Below, piece after piece: positions 18,411 through 50,601 of a stretch of 64,000 bases of DNA (the stretch's first letter is position 1; every line of letters starts with the position of its first letter). The DNA comes from a virus. The stretch is taken from the IMG/VR virus record IMGVR_UViG_3300033064_004648, positions 58,830-122,829 of that record. One strand, written 5' to 3'. The notes below the pieces were generated by a model, which saw nothing but the letters and a program-made list of their open reading frames with translations, had not been told where the DNA came from and made no database searches. The position numbers and the translations under genes are program-made.

Positions 18411-19313
18411 CTATAAATCATAAATATCGTTATAAAATCCATTTTTTATTCTATAAACAGTTGACATACTAATATCTATTTCTTTCAATATTTTTACTAC
18501 GGGTATGCCATTATTTAATAGTTCTAAAATCTCTAAGACTATTTCTTCTTTAAAAATTTTGTAATTATTTTTACCACTATTTGCTTCAGATATTTTCTTT
18601 TTTGTTTCTTCGGAGTGAACTTTTCCAAGCATTCCTACATGATTTTCAGATATCTTTCTTTTTGTTTCCTCAGAATGTTTTTGCCCTTTTTTGGCTTTGC
18701 GCATTTTTTCTTTAGTTTCTTCAGAATGATGTTTTCCAAAATTAGGACTATCTTTTCCTCGTTTTCCCCACATAGGCGCATCTTCTCCAGAAAGACGTGC
18801 ACTATTTTTAGATATTTTTCCTTTTGTTTTTTCAGAAAGATGTTTTCCCCACATATGATTTTTTTTACCAACATATTTTCCTTTGAGGGTATTAGATATC
18901 TTCTTTATGGTTTCATCAGAATGATGTTTGCCAAAATTGGGATGGTCTTTGCCAGAAAGACGTACATGATTTTCAGACATTAATTTTTTTGTTTCTAATG
19001 AACGTTTTATTCCTTTATTGCTATCTACACAATCTCGAATATTGTAGGATAGTCCATGTGTTTTGTCTATATCGCAAAATAACTGTTCATATTTAGTTAA
19101 TTCTTTTTGCCTACAATAAATTAGAATTTCAAATACAAAAAATTCTTTTCCGTATTTGTTATAAGAATTTTGTAAATGCGAATTTTTATGTTTATTGTTT
19201 TTTAATTTACTCCAATGCTGCCCAGGTCTCTCTTTTAAATGTATACTCTGCCCAGCATAACAAACATTCGTTACAATATTCCTTATCTGATAAATCCCAC
19301 AATTTAGATCCAT
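18411..19313 (-). CDS. GIY-YIG homing endonuclease, NUMOD3-rich (type 1)
   Basis: 300 aa. GIY-YIG core at residues ~5-95 ([48 protein letters not shown]). Then seven or so NUMOD3 units of the form [19 protein letters not shown], and one C-terminal HTH repeat ending FYNDIYDL. The GIY motif is well kept (Y...YAGQ, Arg, Glu). It is inserted between the helper gene at 19,448 and Tal. Its leader carries structured RNA copy A (19,343-19,408). The start has GGAGGAATAGAA before ATG 19313. Confidence 0.93.
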
Positions 19314-19342
19314 TTCTATTCCTCCAAGTACTCCATAAATTT

Positions 19343-19408
19343 AAAAAACGGGAAATAGTGGAGTTCTACTTATCGGCTGGTCTATAAGTCCCAACCTATC
19401 CCGTTTTT
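19343..19408 (-). ncRNA. Homing-nuclease leader RNA element, copy A
   Basis: On the minus strand, AAAAACGGGATAG pairs with CTATTTCCCGTTTTT (10 bp, 2-nt T bulge, then TAG/CTA). It encloses a hairpin GGTTGG/CCAGCC and the tract GATAAGTAGAACTCC. The bases ACTCCA are complementary to TGGAGT just upstream of the nuclease ribosome site, allowing an H-type pseudoknot. The hairpin loop also contains ACTTAT, complementary to ATAAGT of the tract. Five related copies precede other nuclease genes. Confidence 0.72.
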
Positions 19409-19416
19409 ACTGTATT

Positions 19417-19449
19417 AAAAACCACATAAAATACGAATTTTATTATGTT
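19417..19449 (-). promoter_or_regulatory. Dispersed leader hairpin, minus-strand copy
   Basis: On the minus strand AACATAATAAAATT pairs with the arm ATTTTATGTGGTTTTT. It overlaps the end of the helper gene at 19,448 and lies just upstream of leader RNA copy A. The downstream arm is the conserved one. Confidence 0.62.
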
Positions 19450-19681
19450 ATTTTACCTTTAACTGTTTCTCAACTTCTTTAGCAATCTTCTCGCCCAATG
19501 TTTCCACTGGCTCAACAGGTGTTGGTTCTATTGATATCTCATAGTCCAATGGTGTTTTCTGTTTTTTGTTCCACTCAAGAAATTTACGAAAGTCCCTGTT
19601 TAGTGGTTCAAACGGAATAGACATATTACCTTTTTGAATTGACACTGGTTCGCCTGTAAAATCATAGTTTATTTTATACAT
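19448..19681 (-). CDS. XkdW-like / tail-fibre helper protein, 77 aa
   Basis: Start set at ATG 19681 (MYKINYDFTGEPVSIQKGN) with GGAG 7 nt upstream. The pattern 'MYK..Y...GEPVSI.K.....IP..P.N.D...FL.W...' followed by a Pro/Glu-rich tail is that of small phage proteins placed after fibre genes (XkdW/hinge-type). It directly follows the fibre gene stop (1 nt apart). A chaperone or fibre-attachment role is inferred from position. Confidence 0.7.
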   Translation of the reverse strand: MYKINYDFTGEPVSIQKGNMSIPFEPLNRDFRKFLEWNKKQKTPLDYEISIEPTPVEPVETLGEKIAKEVEKQLKVK

Positions 19682-19682
19682 G

Positions 19683-21695
19683 TTATAGCTCCGCATCTAA
19701 GTTTACCTGTCCATTCGGGGTCCACATGCAAGGTCTCTGGTTAGCTGCGACTGCCTGTGTTGTTAGGTCTATATATCCTCCTTCAGAATCTGCATTCAAA
19801 GTTGCAACTGTAACATTGCGAAATTGTATTCCTGGGTCAACAACAGCATTTGCTCCTACAATCAATGTGCCAGTAGGTGTTATTCTCATAGATACTGGGA
19901 AAGGTCCAGAAACAGTTGCGCTTGTAGTACTGGTCGCCCACCATGAACCAAACCATTTCGGGAGAAATTGAAAATATCTTAGACATAAATCCTTTTCTGC
20001 CCCAATCGGTCTCGCCACAAAATCGGTACACGTTGCTCCTAATTCTAATTTCACCCATTGAATTTGCAGTATGTCGTTAGCCGCAGCATCAGCGTCATCA
20101 ACCCAAATAAATACACCAACGTTCTTTGTAGCCGCTGTATCAACCGCAATATTTTCAATCGTAAATGTTTGATATGCGGCAGTTAGCAAATTGTCAGTAG
20201 CCACGTTTTCATAAGTCCAGTTAGCAACTAATGTTGGTACAGTTCCTTCTGCTTCCCATGCAGAAACCACATCGCTTGTAACCGTGTCAGCCGCCCCGTC
20301 CCATGAAATAACCGCAGCCCTTACGTTCCTAATTGCAGCCCCGGTAGTCTTTGCCCTGAATGATAGTGAAACAACCTGGTCTATTTGCGGACTGTCTTTG
20401 GTTTCAAGTATCTGTATAAAACCGAATTTCTTATTAGCCGTTGCTACAAGTGCCTGTATAGCAAACGGGTTTTCATCACTCGTTACTGCTAATTGCGAAA
20501 CATCAACAATATCGTTACCATCTGACAATAATACCCACCTATCAAGCAAATAGGTATCATCACTATTTAATGGAACAGTTGCTGCTGTGAACGCAGTTCC
20601 TCTTTGTGCTACTGCGAAACCAGGGTTGATTAGGGAGTTTTGATTTATAATTCTACTATCAATTTTGCTTCCACTAAGAACGTGTCCATAGGTGTCTACA
20701 ATCACCGATGCGTAAGAACCTGCCGTGACAGCCGAGACATTATGTTTAGCAACAGAGCCAGAGGTATCGGAAAGTATTGCTGAGCCAGCAATAGTTGTTG
20801 CTCCCGCTACAACTTGACTCCCGCTAAGAACGTGTCCATAAGTATCCACGATCACCGAGCTATATGAACCTGCGGTGATTGCAGAGACATCATGTTTGAC
20901 AACGGAGCCTGCTGTAGTTGTCATAATTGCAGAACCAGCGATCTCGATTAGCATCAAAGAACCAGCAGTCTCTATCGCTACGATTGAACCACTGTTCCAA
21001 ACCACCTGTTCTTTTAGCAAAGAGCCAGCGGTCTCTATTGCTACAATTGACCCACTATTCCAAACAACTTGGTCATTTAACAAAGAGCCAGCGGTCTCAA
21101 TTTCGACAATCGAACCTTGGATGTAGCCTATTAGACTTGAATTGGCTGAAATAGACCCGCTATTCCAGTCTATGAGAGTATCTTGCGCCACATCATAGGA
21201 TGCAACTTCGCTTCCACTAAGGACGTGCCCGTAAATATCGACAATTACCGAAGCATAAGAACCTGCTGTTACAGCCGAGACATCATGTTTAACTACGGAA
21301 CCAGTTGTTGTTGTCATGATCGCAGAACCGGCGATAGATGATAAATCTCCCGTCCCCGTTGTACTTCCATCTATAACATGTCCGTAGGCGTCAACAATAA
21401 CTGCACTATAAGAACCCGCTGTGATTGCCGAGACATCGTGTTTGACAACTGAACCAGTGGTTGTTGTCATGATTGCCGAGCCAGCGATTGGGTTTGCAAT
21501 AAAGGTATCTATCTGGGCATGAGTATTTGTGCCTATGCTAGTTAGGTTTGTATGATCTACTGCACTACCGCTATCTGAATCAGTATGGTCGTGTATATTG
21601 GTTCCTACATGTGCGGCATTCCAATCAGAAGGACGAACATTAGCAGGATTTGCGGTATCAGCAACGCCAGACACTTTCGAGTGTTTTGTACTCAT
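19683..21695 (-). CDS. Tail fibre with repeats and C-terminal carbohydrate-binding-type domain, 670 aa
   Basis: Begins STKHSKVSGVADTANPANVR, followed by repeats built from GSAIMTTTTGSVVKHDVSA and 'ITAGSYS.VIVD.YGHV..G', a common phage fibre shaft pattern. Residues ~185-250 contain three 21-residue units around DQVVWNSGSIVAIETAGSLL. The C-terminal ~290 residues (LINPGFAVAQRGTAF, TYLLDRWVLL, KLELGATCTDFVARPIGAE) are the typical 'NxF..WQRG' jelly-roll-like fibre end, followed by a small tip. It probably binds host glycans. Parts of this gene recur at 2,968 and 43,256. Confidence 0.82.
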   Translation of the reverse strand: MSTKHSKVSGVADTANPANVRPSDWNAAHVGTNIHDHTDSDSGSAVDHTNLTSIGTNTHAQIDTFIANPIAGSAIMTTTTGSVVKHDVSAITAGSYSAVIVDAYGHVIDGSTTGTGDLSSIAGSAIMTTTTGSVVKHDVSAVTAGSYASVIVDIYGHVLSGSEVASYDVAQDTLIDWNSGSISANSSLIGYIQGSIVEIETAGSLLNDQVVWNSGSIVAIETAGSLLKEQVVWNSGSIVAIETAGSLMLIEIAGSAIMTTTAGSVVKHDVSAITAGSYSSVIVDTYGHVLSGSQVVAGATTIAGSAILSDTSGSVAKHNVSAVTAGSYASVIVDTYGHVLSGSKIDSRIINQNSLINPGFAVAQRGTAFTAATVPLNSDDTYLLDRWVLLSDGNDIVDVSQLAVTSDENPFAIQALVATANKKFGFIQILETKDSPQIDQVVSLSFRAKTTGAAIRNVRAAVISWDGAADTVTSDVVSAWEAEGTVPTLVANWTYENVATDNLLTAAYQTFTIENIAVDTAATKNVGVFIWVDDADAAANDILQIQWVKLELGATCTDFVARPIGAEKDLCLRYFQFLPKWFGSWWATSTTSATVSGPFPVSMRITPTGTLIVGANAVVDPGIQFRNVTVATLNADSEGGYIDLTTQAVAANQRPCMWTPNGQVNLDAEL
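20935..21130 (-). repeat. 63-bp tandem repeats shared with the gene at 43,256
   Basis: About three units of 63 bp encode D-Q-V-V-W-N-S-G-S-I-V-A-I-E-T-A-G-S-L-L. The same unit occurs twice at about 43,600-43,740 with high DNA similarity, although the two genes serve different virion parts. Confidence 0.75.
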
Positions 21696-21751
21696 ACTTA
21701 GTCCTCCTTATCGTTATATTTAAAATTAATTTATAAATGCATTTGTTCTTA

Positions 21752-22549
21752 CTATCCGCCAACAGCTCTTGCAAAACTATAAGTAAATTCAACAAAAGAT
21801 ATTGCACTTGTTATATGTAATGAATTTAAACCAGGTAAAAATCTTAACCAATTTTTATTGAAATATGAAAGACGATAAAGACCAGTTGTTGAAGAAATTA
21901 TTTGAAGGCTATTATCTACAGTAATACCTTCATCTGCACTTAGTCCTGTAAAAATAAATTCTCTACCATCATCAGTTGTATTTGTAAATGTAAAATCTGC
22001 GCCCAGAGAATTGAGTGTAAATTCAATTGTTGGATAGAGATAATTGTTGTTGTCACTATCATTATAAAATGTAAAATCGAAGTCTTGTACTGCATCAGGC
22101 GAAAAATCATAAGAAAAAGATTGATCTTCTGTATGACCCCACGGAGCGTCACAAACTGCCCTTAAATCCATCCCTACGGGTTTATTACCAACATAAATAG
22201 TCTCAGAACCAGTGAATATTACATTGAAATATATGCCCTGCATATCGTCTTGACATATGATTAATTTTTTATAACCAGATTTACCAAGAAGCCATTTAGA
22301 CATATTCCGTATATCTATAGACGATACAAAATTGTTGTAGCCTATTTTAAAAGTGAATTCTAGCGGGATGCTCTGACTGTTCCCAAAATGATAGGGGACA
22401 GTTCGACGATATGGCCACTTTTGATTAATTGTTGTTGCGTTACCCGAAGAAGACCTACTTGTCCCGGAGGTACGCTCAAAATTAATTATTTGTACGCTGT
22501 AATTTTCTGAGGGAATTCCTCCGTAAATGAAGTTCGCGCCAAAAAACAT
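21752..22549 (-). CDS. Distal tail protein Dit
   Basis: 265 aa. The N-terminal belt domain is recognisable (MFFGANFIYGGIPSENYSVQ, QSIPLEFTFKIG, IRNMSKWLLG, YFNVIFTGSETIYVGNKPVG, CDAPWG), followed by a C-terminal beta domain (TIEFTLNSLGADFTFTN). Dit forms the hexameric ring joining the tail tube to the tip. It lies between the tape measure (plus an inserted nuclease) and the fibre gene, as in other siphoviruses. Confidence 0.85.
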   Translation of the reverse strand: MFFGANFIYGGIPSENYSVQIINFERTSGTSRSSSGNATTINQKWPYRRTVPYHFGNSQSIPLEFTFKIGYNNFVSSIDIRNMSKWLLGKSGYKKLIICQDDMQGIYFNVIFTGSETIYVGNKPVGMDLRAVCDAPWGHTEDQSFSYDFSPDAVQDFDFTFYNDSDNNNYLYPTIEFTLNSLGADFTFTNTTDDGREFIFTGLSADEGITVDNSLQIISSTTGLYRLSYFNKNWLRFLPGLNSLHITSAISFVEFTYSFARAVGG

Positions 22550-23308
22550 TTAGTCCTCCTTTGATAAATCATAAATATCATCATATTCATGATTTTTTAC
22601 TCTATAAACCGTACGAACACTAACATTAAGAGTTTTTGATATATTTATTGCCGAAATATTTTTGTCAAGCATACACAAAATATCTATAACTATTTCTTTT
22701 TTTATAGATTTAGACCGACGCATTTTTAAAATAGATTCTGCTGTATGTTGTCTATTATAAAAAGGAGCATCTTTTCCCCTAACGCCCCACATAGGATTAT
22801 TTTTACCTTTGAGATCTCTAGTCTTCCAATTTCTTTTTGGTAAATTATCATAAATATTATCATATCCGCCCTTTTTAATCTTGCCAATAGTATTCTTGCA
22901 AATACCCGTTTTCTTAGAAATCTCTTTCTGTGACATTTCTTTTGGCATTTTCAGTATTTTTAATACCATCTCTTCTTTTATAAGTTTAGGTTGACTTTTA
23001 CATATTTTTGTTCTAGAAATCGATGGGTGATGATACCCGTAAGTACCTTCTCCTCCGCAACAAATATTATACCCAATTTTACGATCTGTTGAACTATATT
23101 TTTTTATCCAATATATTTCTCTCTCACATAAATAATCATGGTCAGTTATTCCATCTTCTAATGTTTCTCTAGTAAAATTTTTTTTACCATATTTTTTAAT
23201 AGCTTTTTTTAAATTTTTTCCTGAACCCAAATAAGATTTTTGATTCCCACAATACTTTCCTATATAAATCATTCCATTGATTTTATTTGTTGTCTTATAA
23301 ATAATCAT
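22550..23308 (-). CDS. GIY-YIG homing endonuclease, Seg-like (type 2)
   Basis: 252 aa. GIY-YIG core: IIYKTTNKINGMIYIGKYCG, SYLGSGKNLKKAIKKYG and DYLCEREIYWIKKY with the conserved Glu. An HTH segment (KEMSQKEISKKTGICKNTI) lies in the middle, a NUMOD3 unit (GKNNPMWGVRGKDAPFYN) follows, and a second HTH ends EYDDIYDL. It is inserted between tape measure and Dit, with its stop abutting the Dit start. Leader RNA copy B precedes it. Confidence 0.92.
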   Translation of the reverse strand: MIIYKTTNKINGMIYIGKYCGNQKSYLGSGKNLKKAIKKYGKKNFTRETLEDGITDHDYLCEREIYWIKKYSSTDRKIGYNICCGGEGTYGYHHPSISRTKICKSQPKLIKEEMVLKILKMPKEMSQKEISKKTGICKNTIGKIKKGGYDNIYDNLPKRNWKTRDLKGKNNPMWGVRGKDAPFYNRQHTAESILKMRRSKSIKKEIVIDILCMLDKNISAINISKTLNVSVRTVYRVKNHEYDDIYDLSKED

Positions 23309-23335
23309 CTATTCCTCCATATCTCCATAAACTTT

Positions 23336-23399
23336 AAAAATGGGAAATAGTGGAGTTCTACTTATCAGTTTAAGAGCGACCTAAACCTATCCCATTTTT
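23336..23399 (-). ncRNA. Homing-nuclease leader RNA element, copy B
   Basis: Minus strand: AAAAATGGGATAG / CTATTTCCCATTTTT form the closing helix, with C-G of copy A replaced by T-A. The inner hairpin is GTTTA/TAAAC, unrelated to copy A. The tract TGATAAGTAGAACTCCACTA is nearly identical to copy A. CTCCA is complementary to TGGAG, which occurs twice before the nuclease ATG. Two thirds of the element therefore vary by compensating changes around a fixed core. Confidence 0.74.
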
Positions 23400-23420
23400 A
23401 TCATACTTAATATTCTTTTT

Positions 23421-23453
23421 AAAACCACATAAAACTATAATTTTATTTGGTTT
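23421..23453 (-). promoter_or_regulatory. Dispersed leader hairpin, minus-strand copy after tape measure
   Basis: On the minus strand AAACCAAATAAAAT pairs imperfectly with GTTTTATGTGGTTTT. It begins at the tape-measure stop codon and lies just upstream of leader RNA copy B, the same arrangement as at 19,417. Confidence 0.65.
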
Positions 23454-26400
23454 CTAAAGAGAAAAATCTTTAGCATTACGCGAGACTCCTCTTTTTGTAA
23501 TTGCTTGATATACTGCCTTGGTTATGTTTTCTTTTAATTCTGGCATAACATTTTTATCAACATTGCCTTCTATTGTTATACTTACAGGAACATTTGTTTC
23601 GCCAGATTTATTTGCAAGAGACAAAAGACCTGGTAACGTATTTCTAATAAAATTATAAGCTTGATTTTCTGTAACTATAACTTCTTCTTTCAATACATTT
23701 GCAAGAACTTCATTTTCTTTCGTTGATGAAGTTGTCGACAAGTCTCTTCCAACAATACCGCCATCATGATATTTGGGAAGTTCGCTGTACTTATCAAGAG
23801 AAATATAAGTACCTGTAATTTTATTTTGATACATTTCTCTATTGTTATACCATCTTCTTTGATAGTCTGATTGTTTTCCCGTAAGGTCGGCAGAAGCGGC
23901 AGCCATGGCATTGGCGGCAGCAGAACCATAACTATTTGCCGAATTAGTTGCATTATTCCATTTTTGCGCAAGATCATCTATGCCTGACCCATACTGTCTA
24001 TTCCATTCCATCAAATTATTATAAAATTCTTGATTTCTACTTTCTAATAATGAAATAGCTTCTGCGCGAATAGCCCCTTCTCTTTTTAAATAATCATCAA
24101 GAGCATCGATTTTCTTACTTAATTGATCTTCATATCTATCATACTCTTCATCCAATGCATCTTTTTGAATATCTACACTTCTATCGGCCTGAAATTGATC
24201 TATTTCAGTGATTTTCTTAGCTTTTTCATCTTCAAGTTCAAGTCGACGTCTTTTAGCTTCATCACTATTATCAAATTGTATTTGTAATAATTCATTTTCA
24301 ATATCAGATAAATCTTCATTCTTTTCAGCAAGTTCATCCTGATATTTATCTTCTTCTTGCATTTGATCGAGTATTTTTTTCTTTGCATCTATAATTTTTT
24401 TATAACCATCAAGTTGTGCTTTTAATGCATCTTTTTGATCGTTTGCTTGTTGTTTAAGCATTGAAATAGTGTCTTTGAGAAGATCATTATAAGTTTTTTG
24501 GGCATCACTAACGCCACTAACTCCAGCAGATACTTTTGGCAACCAAAACGACGTACTTTTAACTTGTGTTAAATACCCCTTAGCTAACGCCAACATTCTT
24601 TGTAGTGCAACATTTTCAGTATCAAGAGCAAGTGCATGTTCCGCCGCTTTAAATGCCGCTTGTGCTTTTTCTACAACCAATGCTTTTAATGCTTGAATAT
24701 TTAGATAAACCAATCCAGTTGTTTGATCAATCATCATGGCTTCTTGGTATTCTAATGGGAACATTGTTTGAAGCGACTGAGCCTGTTCTATGGTCATGCC
24801 ATTAAGTTCATCGTAGCCATTTATAAGATCACGAACCGCAGTTGCATTTTGATAAATAGCATCCATATGAGCAAGAAGTGATTCGGGGCTTGCAGCCTGT
24901 TCCATTTCTTCGCCAATATTTGCGGCAGCTATGGCTAAATCATTTGCATATAGTAAAACTTCTGTTAATAAAGTTTTTCCGTCTTCGGCAGAATCTATAA
25001 TCATTTGCATAAAAGCATTGGATGCAACTTCGCCTTCTTTTTGAGCAACCATGTATAATTCTGTAAGCATTTGTATAGTTTCAGTTTTTATATTTTGTTG
25101 TTCTTTTAATTGAGACTGTAAATCTTTTTCATATCCGGTTTGAAAATCGCCTTGATATGCTCTACTTTTACCGAATTCTCCGGCAATTTCAATTGAACCA
25201 ACTAGTTTTACTTCTTTTTTAGTAGCTAAATTATATGCTTCAATAGATAACTGAGCTTGTCTTTCTTTATCTAATACTAATTGATCTTTTGCCAACTGAA
25301 TTTCTATCATTCTTTGCTTGTTTAATTCGGTTAAATTAATTCCAGCCGTTAAAATAAAGTTGCCTTGTTCGTCATAGAATCCAGAAATGTTTGGCATTAA
25401 TGCTTTTAATTCATTTTGTAAATCATAAAATCTTTGTTGTTCTTCATTATTTCTATTAGTATTATTTCTTAAATTTTCAAATTCATCACTTAGTTCTTCA
25501 ACTCTTTTGATGATACCACTCAAACCAGAAATAGTTGATTCTGTTGCCGATATTGATTTATTAACTTCATTTATACTATCAACATTCTTTTGAATTGTTC
25601 TATCTAATGATCCAGACAAATAGATTAATCCACCTATCGCGGCAGTTATAGCAACAATTGCAAGCGCATATGGATTCCAAAGAGCTGCCCCCAACGCCCC
25701 AGCTTTTGTTAAACCTCCCGCTAATCCCGACAAGTTGGCGGCAAAAGACGCTTTAGGAATAGTTGATAAAAGTGCAATAACTACAGTTAAGACAGGAATA
25801 AGTCCCCCCATAGCCGCAATTAGATTATATATGCCAGTCGTTGCATTTATACTCCATTTTACTAAACCAGAACTAATAGTAGTCTGCCACATTCTTTCTA
25901 AAGCAGCGGCATTTTTATTGGCAGTAGCCTCTATGCTTCCAAGATATATTTCGTATCTTTGTAATGCCAATCCTGCCGAATTTAATTCTACTGCCTGTGC
26001 TATCAAAACTTCGTTATAATTATTCATTAAAACTAAGAAGTTTTCTCTTTGGCGAATACCGGCAATAGTAGTTGCAAGAGCACTTTGTTCTGTAGTACTC
26101 AAAGTAGACCATTTTGAGGATATCTCGTCTAGTACATCTCCCATAGGTCTAAATGTATCACTTGTTTCTCTAAGTGTTATATCTACTAATGATAAAGCTT
26201 TTTCAACATCGTTTATATTGGTTGCTTCATCTTCAAACATTTTTCCTAATTTGATGTTTTGCATTCTCGCAAACATAGTTCGAAGGGATGTGCCAATAGA
26301 TTCTCCCGATTGTCTTGTTATTGAACTGATAACTGTGATATATGATGCTAATTCATCAAAACTAACTCCCGCTTGTTGTGCAGAGTTACTTGATTTTTGA

Positions 26401-27272: not shown

Positions 27273-27312
27273 AGTTAGCCTGCCTCCTTTTATAAAGAAT
27301 TAGTATTGATAT

Positions 27313-34995: not shown

Positions 34996-35868
34996 TCAAT
35001 CATCATAAAAACCATTTCGAATTTTATAAACAGTGGCTATATTGATACCAAGTTCTCTAGCAATCTTTGGGCCAGATATTTTTTTCTTCAATAATTTTTT
35101 TGTTTGCAAAATTGTTTCCTTTTTCAAGGCATTAGATTTAACCCATTTTCGACTTGGCAAACTATATATTTCATTATAAAAACCTCTACTGGCCCTACTC
35201 ACAACGCTCTTGCTGATTTTTAAATTTTCAGCAATTTCTTTTTGGGATAGCCCTTTATCAAGATATTTTATAATTCTTAATATAATTTCTTTTTTAAAAA
35301 TTTTAGACATTCTCATTTTCTTTTTTGTTTCTAGGGAAGGTGTTTTTCCATACATGCCATTTAACTTGCCACATAGTCTGACTCCCCACATCGGATTGTT
35401 TTCATTTTTATGTGCCTTAGACATTTTTTCAATTGTTTCTGGAGAATGTGTTCTGCCATAATTTGGATTATCTTTTCCTAGTTTTCCATAGTTAGGATTA
35501 TTTTTGCCACTTTGAGCAGCACACATTTTCTTAATAGTTTCAGGAGAAAGTTTTATTCCCCTATTGCTTTCAACACACTCACGAATATTATAGGATAAGC
35601 CATGTGCTTTGTTTATATCACAAAATAATTGCTCATAATAAGTCAATTTTTCTGGTATACAATATATCAATATTTCAAAAATAAAATTTGTTTCTCCATG
35701 TTTATTAAAAGAACTTTGCAAATAAGGATTATGATGTTGATTTCTTCGTAAATCACCCAAATGGTCATTTTTCCTAGATTTTAAATGTATGCTCTGTCCA
35801 ACATAGCACTTTCCATTTATAAGATTTCTAATTTGATATATTCCGCAATTAAAATCAGCTTTTTTCAT
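34996..35868 (-). CDS. GIY-YIG homing endonuclease, NUMOD3 plus two HTH repeats (type 1)
   Basis: 290 aa. Core: [56 protein letters not shown]3 units follow (GKDNPNYGRTHSPETIEKM), then two HTH repeats (GLSQKEIAENLKISKSVV ... FYNEIYSLP; KKISGPKIARELGINIATV). It resembles the nucleases at 5,042 and 18,411. It is inserted between the gene at 35,967 and the BIG2 protein. Leader RNA copy C precedes it. Confidence 0.92.
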   Translation of the reverse strand: MKKADFNCGIYQIRNLINGKCYVGQSIHLKSRKNDHLGDLRRNQHHNPYLQSSFNKHGETNFIFEILIYCIPEKLTYYEQLFCDINKAHGLSYNIRECVESNRGIKLSPETIKKMCAAQSGKNNPNYGKLGKDNPNYGRTHSPETIEKMSKAHKNENNPMWGVRLCGKLNGMYGKTPSLETKKKMRMSKIFKKEIILRIIKYLDKGLSQKEIAENLKISKSVVSRASRGFYNEIYSLPSRKWVKSNALKKETILQTKKLLKKKISGPKIARELGINIATVYKIRNGFYDD

Positions 35869-35889
35869 TTTTTCCTCAACCTCTAAGAT

Positions 35890-35953
35890 AAGAGATAAGA
35901 ATGGGGAGGTTTCCCTTTCATTTCAGTAATTAATTGAAACTATCTTATCTCTT
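35890..35953 (-). ncRNA. Homing-nuclease leader RNA element, copy C
   Basis: Minus strand: AAGAGATAAGA/TCTTATCTCTT form an 11-bp closing helix, completely different in sequence from the other copies. The inner hairpin is TTTCA/TGAAA. The single-stranded tract reads GAAAGGGAAACCTCC. Its AACCTC is complementary to GAGGTT at the ribosome site of the nuclease gene, a 6-bp match that differs from the ACTCC/GGAGT pairs of copies A and E in the same way on both sides. Confidence 0.66.
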
Positions 35954-37570: not shown

Positions 37571-38614
37571 TTATTGATCTTTAATTTTACCTGATTTAAT
37601 TTTTTCTAAAAATTCATACCACATTTCGGGAGTTGTATCTCCATACCCATAAATATTATGAAATTTCATATGCCAATCACGAGTCAAACATGCTCCAAGA
37701 GGATATCTCATATGAAGTTCTCTTAATTTTTTTAGAAGTAATTTTAAATCATCTTTTTTATAATCACCAGCATTTTCTTTTAATTCAAAATTCAATTCTT
37801 TTATAGATTCTTTAAATATTGAGTTGAAAGAATATACATGATGTATATCATCATATTTTTCTCCGCTAATAACGCATTTTCCACCACATTGTTTTATAGA
37901 TTCTTTTTTCCAGCGAGTTATTCTATTTTGCAAATAATCTCTAATATTTGTTAGTCCTCCCCGCCAATTACTTGCATTAACTCCACTTATTCTCTCTATT
38001 AAGTCTATTCTTGAACAAACAAAACATTTATGCCACTTTAAAAAACTACTAAATGCCACATAATTAATATGATTATAATTACAAGTATATTTTATTTTAG
38101 AGTTTCTATTGATATACTCATCAGGAAAATCTATAAAGATTAGATTGTTGTCTTCCATTATCTTATTTATTCTTTCCATGGAATATTTTCTAGAAACTTT
38201 TGATTTTTCTAATCCACATATCCTACATCTTCTTCCTCTTTTAAAAGACTCAAAGTTTGTCTTTTTGCCGATATGACTACATTCAAATTGTATTATCAAT
38301 GGTATTTTGCTATTTTTATATTCGATTGAAAGCAATTTGCAATTTTTTAATTTAATATATTCTTTTACATCTTCAAATTTAAAACTATATTTCTCACTAA
38401 ATATACGATTTCGACATTCTGTACATCCATTACCGCTCCATACAGACCAAGTATCAGCATTCCATTTGTTACCACATATTTTACATTCAAATAAACTTTT
38501 TCCGTGAGATCCTTTAAATTCTAGTAAGGCAATTTTATCTCCATGGGTATCAAAAGTTCTTTTTATTGCAACTTCATTTGTAATTGTATCTTTTCTTTTA
38601 TAGTAGTCTCTCAA
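37571..38614 (-). CDS. HNH homing endonuclease with zinc-finger repeats
   Basis: Start set at TTG 38614, because AAAGGAGG lies 5 nt upstream; ATG in that spot is out of frame. 347 aa. Three to four treble-clef/zinc-ribbon units fill the N-terminal half (CKICGNKWN...CTEC, C-x-H...CRICG, C-x-YNH...CFVC). The C-terminal HNH has KCVISGEKYDDIHHVYSFN and ends HMKFHNIYGYGDTTPEMWYE. It is inserted after the major capsid gene, with its own promoter (38,722) and leader RNA copy D. Confidence 0.85.
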   Translation of the reverse strand: MRDYYKRKDTITNEVAIKRTFDTHGDKIALLEFKGSHGKSLFECKICGNKWNADTWSVWSGNGCTECRNRIFSEKYSFKFEDVKEYIKLKNCKLLSIEYKNSKIPLIIQFECSHIGKKTNFESFKRGRRCRICGLEKSKVSRKYSMERINKIMEDNNLIFIDFPDEYINRNSKIKYTCNYNHINYVAFSSFLKWHKCFVCSRIDLIERISGVNASNWRGGLTNIRDYLQNRITRWKKESIKQCGGKCVISGEKYDDIHHVYSFNSIFKESIKELNFELKENAGDYKKDDLKLLLKKLRELHMRYPLGACLTRDWHMKFHNIYGYGDTTPEMWYEFLEKIKSGKIKDQ

Positions 38615-38645
38615 TTCATCCTCCTTTAGATGATTATTTAATATT

Positions 38646-38716
38646 AATAGGTAGAAAGACAACTAAGGAAAGTTATCTTTATCGGTAAGTTAGCAAAATT
38701 CACCTATCTACCTATT
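38646..38716 (-). ncRNA. Homing-nuclease leader RNA element, copy D
   Basis: Minus strand: AATAGGTAGA/TCTACCTATT closing helix (10 bp), inner hairpin GGTGA/TTACC, tract GATAAAGATAACTTTCC. TCCTTAG after the tract is complementary to CTAAAGGA at the ribosome site with one bulged A. The predicted start of transcription from the promoter at 38,722 falls at about 38,715, that is, at the first base of this element. Confidence 0.68.
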
Positions 38717-38721
38717 ATTAT

Positions 38722-42486: not shown

Positions 42487-42494
42487 TCATGCCC

Positions 42495-42686: not shown

Positions 42687-42791
42687 GTCATCCTCCTTTC
42701 ATAGTTAAATTTCATTAGATAAAAACACTTGTCAAACAATATTGTTAACAAGTGTTTTATTTTTAATGGTTTTTAATTTCGTTATAAAATA

Positions 42792-43178: not shown

Positions 43179-43255
43179 AATTTATTCCTCCTTATTTTTT
43201 ATATATGTATTTTTAATTAAGAATTCTTTGAATCCTTACTTGTTGTCTTAATTTT

Positions 43256-43891: not shown

Positions 43892-44003
43892 AATTTATTC
43901 CTCCTTACTAACAAATATACGTTATTATCTAAAAACTTTTCTGTCCTATGATATATCTCTCAAAGTATATTGTTCAGTTTTTATTTATTATAACCTTTCC
44001 TCT

Positions 44004-45596
44004 TTATTTTTTTCCACCTTTATCAATATTTGAAGCACTATCTTGTGTATCTGTTGATTTAATTTCACTATCAGATTTCTGTGGTCTTCCATTATCTTTT
44101 CCACTAAGTTGTGCTCCTGGCGTTACTGGAGTCAAGTTATCAACAAATTTGTTTGCCCTTGCCTCATCAAGTTGTCGTTGAAAATTAAAAGGCGACATCC
44201 CAATGCTTGCGGCTATCTTTTGTGGTAAAACAATTCCTTGTCCTATCAACGCCATTTGGTCATTGAATCGCTGTTGGCGATTTAAGTAAAAATTGGTTCC
44301 TTCAAAATGAAATTTAAATTCAAAATGTTTAGTTTCTTTATTGACGTGATAATTTAAAAATTTCTCAAAATCTGGATAAAGTGCAATCAACTGATTTTCA
44401 TCAACATTAAGTGCTAATTGAGATTCAATTGCATTTTGTTTTACATCCGAAGTAAACAAAAGATTTGTATTTACTCCAGAGGACGCCAAAGTAGTTTTTA
44501 TATAAGAACTATATAGTTCATTATCGGATTCAAAATCTATTCCTTTTATATTTGTCAATGGTACAGCGGCAGTTTTTATAGCAGACCCAATTGCAGCTTT
44601 CACTAAAGCTAGAAATTGTCCCAAGTTTTTGGCAGAAATACCAAACTGATCTTTAGTTGAAGCTTGCGTAGTTTTATTTAATAAGGGGATTTCTCCAATT
44701 ATTAATTTTGCCGCCTCAGCCATATTTACGCTTTTTTGTAATGCCCTCATTGTAGGCTGTTGAATTAGATCTAAAAATAGTCCAGTATATAATGGCAGTC
44801 TTGTTGCCATAGATACATTCATTTTCCACGCCCATCCTTCTTCGGGCGGAATATCTTGCCAATCCATATAAGAACTACGTCCGCGATAAATTGGATTGAC
44901 GGGTGGATTGTATGAAGTTTGTAGTTTTCTCTCGTTATGTTTTCTCTTAAAAAATGGTGGATAAAAATCTATATCAACACCTTGTTGCATAAACCAATTC
45001 ATATTAAATGAAAATAATAACCCATAATCCCATCTTCCGGTTATTAATGTCCAATCGACCGAATTAGGCAACTCTTGTAAAACATATTGATCGCCTTCAA
45101 GTCTTGGCGTACAGAAAAATGTATCATTTCTAATCATTTCTTGTACGGCAATTTTGAACTCTCTACGATAATCAAATTTATCTAAAAATTCTTTTACTTT
45201 ATCTAAGTCTTTTTTATATTTTGGGGTAGTATAATCTTTATATTTTGCATTTATGCAGTCATAAGTTAAATCAAACGCCAATATGTTACTCTGATATTCC
45301 AAGAGGGTCTTGTACACCTGTGAATTAATTTCAAAATCTTGTGAAATCTGTTGTAATTTTAATTCACTGGTTTTCGGACTGTTTAAAGCTTTTATTAAAT
45401 CTGCTTCTGTAGTTTGAAAAGGATTTAATGTAATGTCCTGCATTCTTGCATTTATCATTTGGGGAGATAAATACTGTTGTCCTATTGGCCCCATAAGATT
45501 TTGGGCAAATTCTAGGACATACTTTGTATTTTCTTCAGATATAAGAATTTCTCCATCGGAGCCACTATCTTCCTGTATTTTTTCATTTTCTTTCAA
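44004..45596 (-). CDS. Portal protein
   Basis: 530 aa. Portal-like features: NSQVYKTLLEYQSNILAFDL near residue 95, the long acidic N-terminus, FDYRREFKIAVQEMIRNDTF, then SSGVNTNLLFTSDVKQNAIE and a helical C-terminal stem with FYLNRQQRFNDQMALIGQGI and LPQKIAASIGMSPFNFQRQL. The last ~45 residues are hydrophilic. It forms the dodecamer through which TerL pumps DNA. It is separated from terL by an inserted nuclease gene. Confidence 0.83.
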   Translation of the reverse strand: MKENEKIQEDSGSDGEILISEENTKYVLEFAQNLMGPIGQQYLSPQMINARMQDITLNPFQTTEADLIKALNSPKTSELKLQQISQDFEINSQVYKTLLEYQSNILAFDLTYDCINAKYKDYTTPKYKKDLDKVKEFLDKFDYRREFKIAVQEMIRNDTFFCTPRLEGDQYVLQELPNSVDWTLITGRWDYGLLFSFNMNWFMQQGVDIDFYPPFFKRKHNERKLQTSYNPPVNPIYRGRSSYMDWQDIPPEEGWAWKMNVSMATRLPLYTGLFLDLIQQPTMRALQKSVNMAEAAKLIIGEIPLLNKTTQASTKDQFGISAKNLGQFLALVKAAIGSAIKTAAVPLTNIKGIDFESDNELYSSYIKTTLASSGVNTNLLFTSDVKQNAIESQLALNVDENQLIALYPDFEKFLNYHVNKETKHFEFKFHFEGTNFYLNRQQRFNDQMALIGQGIVLPQKIAASIGMSPFNFQRQLDEARANKFVDNLTPVTPGAQLSGKDNGRPQKSDSEIKSTDTQDSASNIDKGGKK

Positions 45597-45608
45597 GGTA
45601 ATCTCCTT

Positions 45609-46757
45609 CTATGAGAAATTTTTATTTAAATTTAATTTTTTTTCTAAAATTGATTCTATATTGTTAAAATCCCAATATGGAATTGCTATTAATTTGATGT
45701 TATTTTTTTTACAGTAATCTTCTTTCATCTTATCTCTATATTTTTGTAACTCAAAAATTTCTTTACCTCCGAAAAACTCTATAGGTTCATAATGTTGTTT
45801 GCCATTATATTCTAATAAAAATTTTAATTTTTTACAGTCATTAAAAACCCCAAAATCATATTTTAACATACGATTGTTTTTAGTTCTAAGATTATCAAAA
45901 CTATATTGAAATATATAATTAGTATCATTATTTTTCAACCAATTATCAATACGACATTCACCACCGGACATAATACAAAACCTACAGGCACTTCCATTGA
46001 ACCTATTAAGACAACTCGATAAATATGATCTTCCACAAAAATTGCATATCCAATAAAATTTCTTTTTCGTACCGTACACAACATCCGTTGGTTTTAAAGG
46101 ATAATTTTTTGAATAATCCCATTCTAATGCCAAATCAGGTCTTAGGTATGCTAAATTATTTTTAGAAGAAACTCTTTTCCCATTACGGTAAGGGCAACTT
46201 TGTCCTCCAAATATAACCATCCAACTAGAATTCCATGTACAACCACATTCTTTACAACGAAAAACGAGAGAACTATCTATGGCGTTCTTAAAAACTCCTT
46301 CAACAAAACTAAAATCTTTATGTTGTTTTTCTATCCATAATTTAATATTATCTATAGTAAAAATGTTTGTGCCAGAAAACCGATCGGGAGTGCCTCCCTT
46401 TGAAAATGTTGCAAATGTGGTCACATATTTATACCCGTTTTTATCTATTAAATATATCTTTTTTGTATTTCCTTCGTACTGATCGTTCAACAATAAAAAT
46501 TTTCTACCTTCAACAATACTTTTGACATATTTTAAACTATGTCTTCTTTTCAATCCATTTTTTGCAAAAGAACATTTATTACAAAATACTTTTTTAATTT
46601 TTTTAAAATTCGGAAAAGTAATAAAATAAGATTCTCCACAATTCTTACATCTTAGTTCTATTTTTTCATTTGAATTTATATATACTTTACTTAATAACTT
46701 TACATCAAAACTTTCAACGTAATTTTTTACAAAATCATAAGACAATTTTTTACCCAT
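45609..46757 (-). CDS. Homing endonuclease with treble-clef repeats and PD-(D/E)XK (EDxHD/Vsr-like) domain
   Basis: Start set at ATG 46757 (MGKKLSYDFVKNYVESFDVK); GTG 46778 in frame lies on the AAAGGA site. 382 aa. Zinc modules: RCKNCGESY...CNKC, RCKECGCTWNSSW...C, ICNFCGRSY...CRFC. The C-terminal nuclease has YDFGVFNDCKKLKFLLEYNG, KQHYEP and RDKMKEDYCKKNNIKLIAIP, the 'D...E.nG.qHY....D..K..yc....i.Li.IP' pattern of PD-(D/E)XK homing nucleases. It is inserted between terL and portal. Leader RNA copy F precedes it. Confidence 0.84.
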   Translation of the reverse strand: MGKKLSYDFVKNYVESFDVKLLSKVYINSNEKIELRCKNCGESYFITFPNFKKIKKVFCNKCSFAKNGLKRRHSLKYVKSIVEGRKFLLLNDQYEGNTKKIYLIDKNGYKYVTTFATFSKGGTPDRFSGTNIFTIDNIKLWIEKQHKDFSFVEGVFKNAIDSSLVFRCKECGCTWNSSWMVIFGGQSCPYRNGKRVSSKNNLAYLRPDLALEWDYSKNYPLKPTDVVYGTKKKFYWICNFCGRSYLSSCLNRFNGSACRFCIMSGGECRIDNWLKNNDTNYIFQYSFDNLRTKNNRMLKYDFGVFNDCKKLKFLLEYNGKQHYEPIEFFGGKEIFELQKYRDKMKEDYCKKNNIKLIAIPYWDFNNIESILEKKLNLNKNFS

Positions 46758-46802
46758 ATTCTTCAATATTCCTTTCACAATATTGTTTTTCGATTATATT
46801 AA

Positions 46803-46882
46803 AAATGGATGAAAATAGTCGAAAGCCTACTTTTTAATTATTATAAGAGTTGCAACTCTAATAAAAATCTATTCATCCATTT
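46803..46882 (-). ncRNA. Homing-nuclease leader RNA element, copy F
   Basis: Minus strand: AAATGGATGA/TCATCCATTT (10 bp), then the same 2-nt T bulge and TAG/CTA as in copies A and B. The inner hairpin is AGAGTTGCAACTCT (perfect). The tract AAGTAGGCTTTCGACTATTT is aligned with AAGTAGAACTCCACTATTT. CTTTC is complementary to GAAAG at the nuclease ribosome site. This is the most diverged nuclease class with this leader. Confidence 0.68.
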
Positions 46883-46891
46883 GTAACCAAT

Positions 46892-48709
46892 TTATACAGA
46901 TTGTACTAAAGACATCATTTCTGCCGTTGAATCATAAGTATCTTCCTTAAGAAGTTCTTGATCTAATATTGAAGCATAATATGTCCCATATAATAAACTA
47001 CTAAATCTATCTTTTCGACTTCCTGGTATTTCTGTTAGTTTAATGTTTCCTATACTCACAGACATTGATAAGTTAATACATTCATTAATAAGTAATGAAG
47101 TTTGTACGTATGGTGCTAAAAAAAAACTTTTTGCTGTTGGGTCATTTTGACTAAGAAATTCTTTTTTATACGAGGACTTTATTAGATAATCGTCGGCAGA
47201 CATTTCATCTACTAAGAAACTAAACATTCTTTTTTGAAGTTTATCCCTCATTTGTACCGCCATAATCGAATTTAATTTAGCGGTTGCAGAAATAGGATAT
47301 ATGTTTTGTACCGCCCCTACTCCTAAAGTACGTTTAGATAATTCTTCATAATTATCATTGCTAATAGTTGCATCTGGAATAATCGTCCATGCAGGCCATT
47401 CTGCCCCACTATCCGAATCAATAGTAATTTGACCTAGTTGATCATACATAGGAAGTCCACCACCACCAGTACCAACATCTAATACTAATACATCGGCATC
47501 AAAAGCATAATATAATTGCTTAATTCTTGCGCTCTGCGAAATTGAATCTACGCCAGAGAAAGTCTCCATATATACCAAGTCTATTGTGTATCCCTTGCGA
47601 GTAGGGGATAGTCTTAAACAACTTGTTGCAGACAGGTCGTTGCTTTTGCCGGCTTTTTGAGCAACGTCACAAGATATAAGCCTTATTTCACCATCCTTTT
47701 TTTTGATAGCATAAGGATTTTTTTTAAAATTATATGTTTCCATTCTCTGAGGATAAAATGCCTTCTTTATTGTTCTCGCTCTATCAAACATCTTTAATTT
47801 AAAATAAGCATCAGAATTTTCGCCATATGGAATGTTAAAATATTCTTCTTGGGCTGTTATTTCGTCCATTTTAGATATTTCGTTTCTAATTTGCCTTGCT
47901 GTTTTAATATGATGTCTGATAGACACAGCAAAATCTATGGCGATAAATCCAGCATTGTCACCTTTCAACATTGCTATAATATTCTTTTTTGTTTCGTCGA
48001 ACCACCAAAGAAACTTCCTGTAGGCACTGGAGATAAAAATCTCTTTTGGTTCTTCTCCTAGGTGTTCATATTTAGGATTTTTTAAATATGGGGCCTGTCT
48101 TATGTAAGCGAATGGTCTAATAACTGCATCTAAAACTTTCTTATCAATTAATCTGAATTCTTCGTATAAAATAAAAGTAGCTCGCTTGCCTCTGCTTGAA
48201 TCACGGCTAGCCACAATTTTTATTACACTTCCATTATAAAAATCCACTTGCCATTTGTTCATGTTCTCTGTAAGTTTTTTAATTTCTCTTGCAAGATTAG
48301 GATAATCGTTGCGAAGACTTGTAATTTTGTCACTAACAATAATTCCCGCTTGTTGTTTTGTGCTACTAACAACAACTATTTCACTGTTTGGATATAAAAC
48401 TGCTTTCGCACAAACAAAAACACCTACCAACCATGTTTTCCCTGTGGCACGACTACAAATTGCTACAAATGAATCACTAACATTCATAAGATAAACAAGC
48501 AGTATTTGATAAGGATGTAATTTTATACCGAAATAATGTTCAATAAATCTATGCATATTTCGACGATAAAAAGTTATCCAATCAATTAATTTATCTCTTC
48601 TTATCTTGCTCATATCGACTTCTCTTATGGTCGAAATGGGTTTTTTGAAAATATCTTGTCCTTCTGAATTTCTTTGTTTTTGGTTTTTAAAATTTTTATA
48701 AGAAGGCAT
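46892..48709 (-). CDS. terL: Terminase large subunit
   Basis: 605 aa. ATPase: Walker A SRATGKTW near residue 88, IVVVSSTKQQAG, Walker B TFILYEEFR. Nuclease: LISCDVAQKAG (first Asp), DADVLVLDVGTGGGGLPMYD, and the C-terminal acidic region. It packages DNA into the prohead through the portal. Direction and order (313-residue gene, terL, portal) follow the usual head module. An inserted nuclease gene follows it. Confidence 0.93.
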   Translation of the reverse strand: MPSYKNFKNQKQRNSEGQDIFKKPISTIREVDMSKIRRDKLIDWITFYRRNMHRFIEHYFGIKLHPYQILLVYLMNVSDSFVAICSRATGKTWLVGVFVCAKAVLYPNSEIVVVSSTKQQAGIIVSDKITSLRNDYPNLAREIKKLTENMNKWQVDFYNGSVIKIVASRDSSRGKRATFILYEEFRLIDKKVLDAVIRPFAYIRQAPYLKNPKYEHLGEEPKEIFISSAYRKFLWWFDETKKNIIAMLKGDNAGFIAIDFAVSIRHHIKTARQIRNEISKMDEITAQEEYFNIPYGENSDAYFKLKMFDRARTIKKAFYPQRMETYNFKKNPYAIKKKDGEIRLISCDVAQKAGKSNDLSATSCLRLSPTRKGYTIDLVYMETFSGVDSISQSARIKQLYYAFDADVLVLDVGTGGGGLPMYDQLGQITIDSDSGAEWPAWTIIPDATISNDNYEELSKRTLGVGAVQNIYPISATAKLNSIMAVQMRDKLQKRMFSFLVDEMSADDYLIKSSYKKEFLSQNDPTAKSFFLAPYVQTSLLINECINLSMSVSIGNIKLTEIPGSRKDRFSSLLYGTYYASILDQELLKEDTYDSTAEMMSLVQSV

Positions 48710-48712
48710 ATT

Positions 48713-49654
48713 TTATTCTCCTTCATTTATTTCTTCAGCCATTCCAATTGATTCTAATTCGGAAGTATTAAAATCGCGAGAACCAGTAATAAAATTGCGA
48801 ATAGATCTAATAATGTCTTTTCGGTCTTCCTCTATTCCATCTATATCGTGATATTTTGTTTGGTCTTGCCACCATTCAGCGGGAGTTTTGTTTTCAATAT
48901 CTTTTATCCACACACCAAATGCATCGGCAAATTTATTTGAGTCGGCTGCATTTTGTAATGCAGGAGTAAGCGCACTGTTTTTCATAATTTCTTGTAATTG
49001 TTTTACTAAATTACTTGTAGACCCTCCCGTTATTCTTTCTTTGCGGATCTCGTTTTGTTTGTGACAAATTTCTCTTACGAGAACGATTTCACTCTGAGTA
49101 TTACATTTAGTAGTTCTCTTCCATTTAGAAAATTCTCGCTCCAGATATTTATAATCATCTATGTTTAAATTATCGCCTTCCCCCCAACTATCTTCATAAT
49201 ATTCTTTGTCTGGAATTATTTCGGTAGACAAGGATTCGATAACTTTTTTAGTCGGTTCAACAAAAGTCAAGTCTTCGTCTGTATTTCTTTTTCCGATTTG
49301 TGAATGCTGTAAAGCCCCTAGTTTAGATTTGTAGGTGCCAAAAATACTCTTTACTTTAGTGCCGCGTTCTTCATATGTTTGTATATGTTTTTTTGTTGAT
49401 TCTATTGCCTCTTCGTCATATCGAACATTCAATAGTCGACACATTCGCAATAAAGTTTTTTCCATTGTTTTTTCAACAACAAAAAACGATACATACATAT
49501 TATTTATACAATCTTTGCACACCGACATTAAATTGTTTTTGTCCAAGAAAAAATCGGTCGCTTTGTAGAAGTATATTATTGGTTTATTTTTCATACATTT
49601 ACGACAATAGTTTTTAGGTTTGTCTACTTTTTTTATTCTTTTGGAAATCGCCAT
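48713..49654 (-). CDS. Putative terminase small subunit with N-terminal zinc finger, 313 aa
   Basis: Residues ~15-48 hold CRKC...K...CKDC (treble-clef-like zinc binding), next a helical region with KTLLRMCRLLNVRYDEEAIE, then acidic linker and a C-terminal helical domain (ALQNAADSNKFADAFGVWIK, EWWQDQTKYHDIDG). Immediately upstream of terL (3 nt), where terS lies. The zinc-bearing start is known in some phage terS-position proteins. Function by position. Confidence 0.65.
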   Translation of the reverse strand: MAISKRIKKVDKPKNYCRKCMKNKPIIYFYKATDFFLDKNNLMSVCKDCINNMYVSFFVVEKTMEKTLLRMCRLLNVRYDEEAIESTKKHIQTYEERGTKVKSIFGTYKSKLGALQHSQIGKRNTDEDLTFVEPTKKVIESLSTEIIPDKEYYEDSWGEGDNLNIDDYKYLEREFSKWKRTTKCNTQSEIVLVREICHKQNEIRKERITGGSTSNLVKQLQEIMKNSALTPALQNAADSNKFADAFGVWIKDIENKTPAEWWQDQTKYHDIDGIEEDRKDIIRSIRNFITGSRDFNTSELESIGMAEEINEGE

Positions 49655-49725
49655 AGAACCTCTTTTAAATTAAAAAAGACTATAAAAATATAGTCTTTTG
49701 ATAATGTGATAATTAGTTTTTTTAT

Positions 49726-50514
49726 TTAAATGTCGTAGATTTCGTTGTACCATCCGTTTTTGACTTTATAGACGGTGGTTTTCCCAACATTCACCTCTTT
49801 TAATATTTTTGTTACGGATAAACCTTTACTTAATAATTTTGAAATATCTAAAATAACTTCTTTTTTTATAAGTTTCACTTCAGACATTTTTTCAAGTGTT
49901 TCTTCTGTATGGTGTTTCCCATACAGGGGGTTATTCACGCCCTTTTGTGCTTCGGACATTCTTTCAATTGTTTCTGGCGTGTGATGTCTTCCATACATAG
50001 GATGATTTTCCCCACCATTATCCCAATGATTTTCGGACATCTTCTTGCATGATTCTGGCGCGTGATGTCTTCCATAATTAGGGTTGTCTTTTCCTTTTTT
50101 CCCGTACATCGGATGATTTTCGCCACTAATATCCGCATGGTTTTCAGATATTTTTCTACACGTTTCTTCAGTCATAGGCGATCTATTTTTAGCGGATTCC
50201 GACATTTTCTCACGTGTTTCTGGCGTATGGATAAGCCCAGAAAAACCGCTTTTGCCACCCTCGCTAAGGTTATATCCAACATCTGGATTAGTAGAATCAT
50301 AGAATTCTATCCAATAAATTTCTCTCTCACATAAATAATCATGATCGGTGATGCCGTCTTCTAAAGTTATTCTGCTAAAATTTTCTTTACCGTATTTCTT
50401 GATCGCTCGCCCGACATATGTGCCAGATCCGAGATAAGTTAATTTGTTCTCGTTAACTAATTTCCCCACGTAAACTTTATTTTTTATATTATTAGTCGTC
50501 AAATATATTATCAT
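49726..50514 (-). CDS. GIY-YIG homing endonuclease, Seg-like, NUMOD3-rich (type 2)
   Basis: 262 aa. Core: IIYLTTNNIKNKVYVGKLVN, YLGSGTYVGRAIKKYGKENF, CEREIYWIEFY. Then five or more NUMOD3 units (GENHPMYGKKGKDNPNYG, HHTPETIERM) and a C-terminal HTH (SVTKILKEVNVGKTTVYKV). Close relative of the gene at 55,961; the first ~95 residues are nearly the same. It is inserted between the exonuclease and the terS-position gene and carries leader RNA copy E. Confidence 0.92.
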   Translation of the reverse strand: MIIYLTTNNIKNKVYVGKLVNENKLTYLGSGTYVGRAIKKYGKENFSRITLEDGITDHDYLCEREIYWIEFYDSTNPDVGYNLSEGGKSGFSGLIHTPETREKMSESAKNRSPMTEETCRKISENHADISGENHPMYGKKGKDNPNYGRHHAPESCKKMSENHWDNGGENHPMYGRHHTPETIERMSEAQKGVNNPLYGKHHTEETLEKMSEVKLIKKEVILDISKLLSKGLSVTKILKEVNVGKTTVYKVKNGWYNEIYDI

Positions 50515-50540
50515 TTCTCTCCATACTCCATTAAATAAAA

Positions 50541-50601
50541 AGAATGGGAAAAAGGAGTCTTTTTTATCGGGTCGGTGATCATTCCGTTCCTATCCCATTC
50601 T
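50541..50601 (-). ncRNA. Homing-nuclease leader RNA element, copy E
   Basis: Minus strand: AGAATGGGA/TCCCATTCT (9 bp) followed by TAGG, inner hairpin CGG/CCG, tract GATAAAAAAGACTCC. ACTCC is complementary to GGAGT, which lies just before the real ribosome site GGAGAG of the nuclease gene. Same relative positions as copies A and B. Confidence 0.7.

Follow-up and report, generated by a model that had tools for sequence, protein, structure and literature searches.

Six homing endonuclease genes (HEGs) of a phage are each preceded by a structured RNA element whose third hairpin loop, L3, pairs with a strand just past the element and, as a rule, has a second complementary site near the start codon of the nuclease gene. 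The genes lie in the window, a stretch of 64,000 bases (58,830-122,829) of the 122,829-base IMG/VR phage record IMGVR_UViG_3300033064_004648. The six elements, named A to F, were read directly and folded; all are on the minus strand, flanked by a phage gene stop and a nuclease gene start. That they are structured RNAs is virtually certain. As judged from sequence comparison, the element is probably a bistable translational leader switch, possibly tied to transcript dimerisation. It appears to be one of a large family of phage mRNA leaders, most of them undescribed, and the family is not wholly new, as the Rfam motif int-alpA (RF02996) shares its architecture.

The order of parts is the same in the six elements: helix P1, the junction strand J12 (UA), the P2 hairpin, the junction strand J23 (GAUA or GAAA, AAAA in F), the P3 hairpin and the P1' strand, followed by a pseudoknot between L3 and the downstream strand. 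In the window P1 has 9-11 base pairs, and an A-U closing pair is found in nearly all family members. An earlier note on this DNA had placed the six elements on the minus strand between a stop and a nuclease gene, and its coordinates hold to within a few bases. It had also described a TAG/CTA pairing with a 2-nucleotide T bulge as an extension of P1; across the family the UA of the UAG is instead unpaired, its G is where P2 begins, and the CTAT lies in P3. The elements and their L3-complementary sites, site 1 and site 2, are listed below; the elements were found with the descriptor and a covariance model, except F, and site 2 is in most cases the Shine-Dalgarno (SD) sequence.

19344-19408, minus strand: RNA element A (P1, UA, P2, GAUA, P3 with L3 AACTCCA, P1')
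19330-19335, minus strand: A site 1, pseudoknot strand TGGAGT
19322-19326, minus strand: A site 2, TGGAG, the SD
23335-23400, minus strand: RNA element B
23323-23327, minus strand: B site 1, TGGAG
23315-23319, minus strand: B site 2, TGGAG, the SD
35890-35953, minus strand: RNA element C, with the P2 loop (L2) palindrome TAATTA
35878-35883, minus strand: C site 1, GAGGTT
35874-35877, minus strand: C site 2, GAGG, the SD
38645-38717, minus strand: RNA element D
38621-38626, minus strand: lone L3-complementary strand of D, AAGGAG, the SD; site 1 not clear
50541-50601, minus strand: RNA element E, with the L2 palindrome TGATCA
50525-50529, minus strand: E site 1, GGAGT
50519-50522, minus strand: E site 2, GGAG, the SD
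46803-46882, minus strand: RNA element F, the most divergent, with a long P2, loop TTGCAA and J23 AAAA (descriptor only)
46788-46793, minus strand: F site 1, TCGAAA
46772-46776, minus strand: F site 2, GAAAG

The L3 and partner strands are ACTCCA/TGGAGT in A, CTCCA/TGGAG in B, AACCTC/GAGGTT in C, TTCCTT/AAGGAG in D, ACTCC/GGAGT in E and TTTCGA/TCGAAA in F; both sites are present in every element except D, which has the SD site alone. When the descriptor (P1 / UA / P2 / 4-5 nucleotides / P3 / P1' plus the loop-downstream pairing) was run on the whole phage, A to F were the top six minus-strand matches, with scores of 64-74 and a runner-up of 58. Two covariance models, R1 (built from A, B, C, E and the relatives L003 and L053) and R2, each recovered five of the six; F was matched by neither and was picked up by the descriptor alone. 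Since the training sets included window copies (four of the five recovered in the case of R1, D alone being outside, and all six for R2), independent support comes from homologues elsewhere. An Rfam search at the gathering threshold gave a tRNA as the sole match in the window; a tRNA-Thr (TGT) gene lies at 51774-51846 (minus strand), directly upstream of the gene preceding element E. An intrinsic terminator was ruled out, as the GC-rich members L136 and L145 have no U run after P1.

The covariation claimed by the earlier note was borne out in 40 distinct family sequences. Over 20 pairs, 97.3% of the pair cells were paired and double changes occurred at 19 pairs; the covariation score was 0.933 against 0.242 after shuffling, a value reached by none of 500 shuffles, and double-change cells numbered 278 against 77. 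Sliding the partner strand by one base lowered the pairing to 50-56%. The sequences come from metagenomic contigs with predicted start codons, near-duplicates were dropped only when the core was identical, and the collection patterns fixed some core bases, which in itself explains part of their conservation. For the alignment the sequences were trimmed to one common length, and the best-pairing window supplied the five pseudoknot pairs; the 100% pairing of helix 4 is therefore by construction, and the pseudoknot was given a separate test. With pairing scores that are simple sums devised for this analysis, the mean best pairing of pseudoknot 1 (L3 with site 1) was 15.4, compared with 10.94 ± 0.32 for shuffled sequences and 11.08 ± 0.33 with the loop of another member, a difference of about 13 standard deviations. 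L3 and its partner, about 8 nucleotides past P1, change sequence together, and comparison of the members leaves pseudoknot 1 almost certainly real. In the helices 55 G-U pairs were counted against 10 A-C mismatches on the coding strand, which indicates that selection acts on the RNA. That inverted repeats and palindromes lie next to nuclease genes might also suggest a DNA-level element such as a cruciform, a homing site or an operator; we give this practically no weight, given that G-U is tolerated and A-C is not, that the element is always on the coding strand and also stands before non-nuclease genes, and that the palindrome sequence changes freely.

Besides site 1, the stretch from P1 to the start codon usually contains another site complementary to L3. 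The second-best non-overlapping site scored 12.88, against 9.01 ± 0.24 with the loop of another member. This site 2 is usually the SD, and the pairing is also present where an SD is absent: members with a non-SD-like site 2 scored 12.22 against 8.50 ± 0.47 in the cross-member control. In L144, AATTTGAT occurs in two identical copies, one after P1 and the other abutting the ATG; the two sites are TCGTCGGT and TTCATCGGT in L121, CGTGGG and TAACGTGG in L108, and GTTCTGG and CTGGTT in L149. The second-site hypothesis was framed on this first set and then run on 53 int-alpA-like leaders, where site 2 scored 11.68 against 8.00 ± 0.32, and on 28 held-out leaders (13.61 against 8.67 ± 0.37). In 48 of 52 members the pairings with site 1 and site 2 overlap by at least 3 loop bases; the same L3 bases serve both, which makes the pairings mutually exclusive, and the mean duplex energies are -6.4 and -5.8 kcal/mol, respectively. 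Spacing is tight from P1 to site 1 (quartiles 7, 8 and 11 nucleotides) and from site 2 to the start codon (3, 5 and 7), and loose between the two sites (0-50 nucleotides). The sequences thus allow mutually exclusive structures that would control the ribosome-binding site in the manner of a riboswitch, and we consider it likely that the two sites form a functional switch.

The position of the SD, outside P1-P3 and reachable by loop L3 alone, bears on a simpler reading. In the T4 homing genes I-TevI and segB and in Aeh1 mobE, translation is held down by RNA that sequesters the ribosome-binding site (PMC2988022), a literature that gives a biological rationale for the translational gating of homing nucleases. 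A constitutive damper of this kind would keep the site always occluded except on a shorter transcript, with no switching, and D, whose only L3 partner is the SD itself, would suit it; yet a damper has no need for a decoy site 1 whose sequence follows that of the loop, nor does the SD lie in any hairpin stem, and we find this reading rather improbable. Still less likely is an exonuclease-blocking or mRNA-stabilising structure, to which the shared pairing topology with the flaviviral exonuclease-resistant RNA (xrRNA) and the location at a cistron's 5' edge within a polycistronic mRNA could point. It would leave site 2 at the start codon unexplained, and the element is present in satellites of E. 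coli, a species that lacks RNase J. A self-cleaving ribozyme or RNA-processing site that splits off the nuclease cistron would fit a small RNA with conserved junction bases beside mobile-gene cassettes; however, the element has no Rfam ribozyme match, its two-site design would go unexplained and we know of no ribozyme class with its topology, so that we regard this as highly improbable.

The third feature of the family, next to the fold and the two sites, is a mostly self-complementary P2 loop in which the register is fixed and the sequence varies. In the class with 13 nucleotides in P2, all 16 unique sequences had a self-complementary 4-mer centred after base 7, and nine different 4-mers occurred at this position; the palindrome register was found in 12 of 15 sequences of the 21-nucleotide class and 10 of 16 of the 12-nucleotide class. 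The register rule was set before the held-out sequences were parsed, and 24 of 27 satisfied it, two of the three failures being likely false matches. As neighbouring central bases cannot pair inside one hairpin, a loop-loop contact between two copies is the simplest reading: the apical loop is kept as a palindrome and not as a sequence, as expected of a kissing loop. The palindrome predicts a homodimer, which would probably form in vitro; control of translation by such dimers is possible at best. The conserved junction bases, variable helices, fixed spacing from P1 to site 1 and variable distance to site 2 also resemble a ligand-binding riboswitch, in which a small molecule would be bound by the junction and pseudoknot 1 as aptamer and site 2 would serve as expression platform. 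Nevertheless, a ligand would not need a palindromic P2 loop, the conserved unpaired bases are very few (UA and GAWA, some of them fixed by the collection patterns) and the downstream genes have no metabolic theme in common, all of which makes an aptamer unlikely.

In the bistable leader switch that we favour, the element would act as the 5' leader of the downstream gene and gate its translation. P1, P2 and P3 would meet in a three-way junction whose UA and GAWA strands are conserved. With L3 on site 1, about 8 nucleotides past P1, pseudoknot 1 would leave the ribosome-binding region free and the gene on; with L3 on site 2, about 5 nucleotides before the start, a pseudoknot 2 would block initiation and turn the gene off. 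We infer that the self-complementary P2 loops could let two transcripts of the same gene kiss, and that either this dimerisation or a factor recognising the junction may tip the switch. In this phage the mechanism would gate translation of promoterless homing-nuclease cassettes within a late structural operon. A more speculative extension, about which we are doubtful, is that phage-wide leaders of this type count their own transcripts: palindrome pairing would be private to each gene, and the dimer would flip the pseudoknot between the decoy and the start region. Several observations weigh against the switch and its dimer: 1) where site 2 is the SD, as it often is, an L3 complementary to the SD would by itself produce part of the match, 2) D and L053 have one good site each and L127 none that is strong, 3) single window members are individually weak in the pseudoknot test (shuffle p 0.007-0.32) and 4) B, D and the members with GACG-type loops, including the E. 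coli copies, have no L2 palindrome. The overlap with the SD is dealt with by the cross-member control and by the members that have no SD-like site 2, though with start codons that are predicted.

Concerning the genes behind the elements, PHROGs matched all six window proteins to homing endonuclease, HNH endonuclease or endonuclease families, and Pfam assigned GIY-YIG to A and C, NUMOD3 to A, C and E, CapR to D and DUF4379 to F.

18411-19313, minus strand: HEG A, GIY-YIG and NUMOD3 (Pfam, PHROGs)
22550-23308, minus strand: HEG B, PHROG homing endonuclease, GIY-YIG type (PHROGs)
34996-35868, minus strand: HEG C, GIY-YIG and NUMOD3 (Pfam, PHROGs)
37571-38614, minus strand: HEG D, PHROG endonuclease / HNH endonuclease, CapR zinc finger (Pfam, PHROGs)
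49726-50514, minus strand: HEG E, PHROG homing endonuclease, NUMOD3 (Pfam, PHROGs)
45609-46757, minus strand: HEG F, DUF4379, PHROG HNH / homing endonuclease (Pfam, PHROGs)

Within this phage the element is restricted to HEGs of the minus-strand (late) half. No element was detected at about ten GIY-YIG/HNH-type HEGs of the plus strand (early region), several of which have start codons that overlap or adjoin the preceding stop within a few bases. The plus-strand nuclease genes are located as follows.

L083 1219-2148, plus strand: nuclease gene
L083 8009-8728, plus strand: nuclease gene
L084 1046-1648, plus strand: nuclease gene
L084 9539-10282, plus strand: nuclease gene
L084 10692-11441, plus strand: nuclease gene
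L084 13702-14304, plus strand: nuclease gene
L085 196-912, plus strand: nuclease gene
L085 1323-2006, plus strand: nuclease gene
L085 13506-14477, plus strand: nuclease gene

L085 also carries, at 2467-4533, an RtcB-like RNA ligase gene, apparently interrupted by an intein (translation judged by eye).

Relatives of HEG E in viral contigs led to element copies before GIY-YIG-type genes in L003 and L053, the latter in a phage whose reading frames require TAG to be decoded as an amino acid. R1 found five copies in a 36-kb contig (G003): three before nuclease-like genes, one (L098) before a 472-amino-acid zinc-finger-like protein for which Pfam gave no match, and one (L104) before a primase-like gene. 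Scans of viral contigs for the RNA core, blind to proteins, gave members of up to 71% G+C and again showed the element before nucleases of different families (GIY-YIG, HNH, NUMOD and DUF4379 types), here in unrelated phages, as the earlier note had claimed for this one. Among 40 downstream proteins, about 18 had HEG-type domains in Pfam (GIY-YIG, HNH_3, NUMOD3/4, HNH_repeat, T5orf172, DUF4379); the rest comprised some proteins that resemble zinc-finger nucleases but have no Pfam match, as well as about a dozen other genes. In the held-out 28, strict nuclease/HEG domains were found in 12, and the majority of the remainder were similar. By raw counts, HEGs look heavily over-represented downstream. 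Other genes behind the element encode a glycosyltransferase/FkbM protein (L126), a tape-measure-like protein (L127), primase-like proteins (L104 and L221) and satellite proteins. The earlier note had expected a covariance search of phages to place the RNA before homing nucleases: homologues were found and many do precede HEGs, but these other genes, and the HEGs of the same phage that have no element, contradict a specificity for the homing lifestyle. Nor is the family universal among HEGs, as R2 gave zero matches in 15 named HEG-rich phage records (2.7 Mb). The zero matches in 566 bacterial genomes are weakly informative, with some 21 candidates scored per genome, and a search for HEG proteins in genome contigs returned helix-turn-helix (HTH) fragments only. 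R1 matches in G040, G023 and G008 were discarded on inspection because the UA/GAWA core was missing, and L350, L366 and about a quarter of the loose pattern matches look like chance. Two matches to other RNAs were seen in these contigs: a group I intron (L118 4795-5006, minus strand, 57.5 bits) that shares its contig with one element, and, directly before a tRNA in contig G029, an HDV-like ribozyme match (HDV-F-prausnitzii; L097 204-277, plus strand) of 43.6 bits, the cutoff being 44; the G029 phage apparently reads TAG as an amino acid.

If the proposed mechanism is true, phages and satellites would possess a compact way to gate translation that requires no protein, and homing nucleases of unrelated families would have a control in common; under transcript counting, translation would follow transcript abundance without a protein or metabolite. 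An Rfam motif so far unexplained would join many phage leaders in a single family whose mechanism can be tested; the rules for the two sites and the palindrome specify the individual point mutations expected to flip, break or restore the switch.

The closest known system is int-alpA, reportedly discovered by Weinberg et al. in 2017, and its existence overturns the statement of the earlier note that no described RNA has this layout; our literature search found no description of the phage RNA and int-alpA mentioned only in one list. The window elements have the RF02996 architecture (P1-UA-P2-GAAA/GAUA-P3-P1' and an L3-complementary tail). They stay below its gathering cutoff of 35.8 bits (28.0 for A), as does the family member L127 of another contig (32.5), and the phage relative L105 exceeds it with 48.4; the window elements lie in a late operon before HEGs and not between the integrase and alpA of satellites. 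We therefore regard them as relatives of int-alpA and not as members under Rfam's rule. A pattern for the int-alpA branch gave at least 120 matches in viral contigs, from which the 53 unique leaders were parsed. The E. coli copies, in satellites beside yicC between the integrase and a variable HTH gene of about 300 amino acids, likewise show P1, (C)UA, P2, GAAA, P3, P1' and a tail complementary to L3, with TAAGGT or TAAGGC at site 1 and a second AAGG before the start. Unlike the phage elements, which appear as cis leaders with a mostly GAUA junction and often stand before HEGs, int-alpA is classed as a small RNA in Rfam, its printed model has no pseudoknot and the copies studied sit in satellites. 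The gene that follows it there (L216-L220, about 280-317 amino acids) varies strongly among strains, its versions having in common only an N-terminal HTH-like stretch (by eye); Pfam and PADLOC gave nothing clear for these genes, which may be satellite cargo or a regulator.

The RNAs of T4-type HEGs are alike in that a structure upstream of a homing-nuclease gene governs access to the SD, but they are individual hairpins with the SD in the stem, whereas the window elements keep the SD outside any stem and the family has a conserved junction fold, an alternative loop partner and several gene families in common. The flavivirus xrRNA is a three-way junction whose L3 pairs with the strand after P1, as in our elements; there is no sequence relation, and we know of no xrRNA counterpart of site 2 or of the palindromic L2. 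Finally, the dimerisation initiation site (DIS) of HIV-1 presents a 6-nucleotide palindrome flanked by unpaired bases in an apical loop. The phage leader has a similar palindromic apical loop, for which a homodimer is only predicted, and differs in that its loop lies within a phage mRNA leader and would be coupled to a translational pseudoknot.

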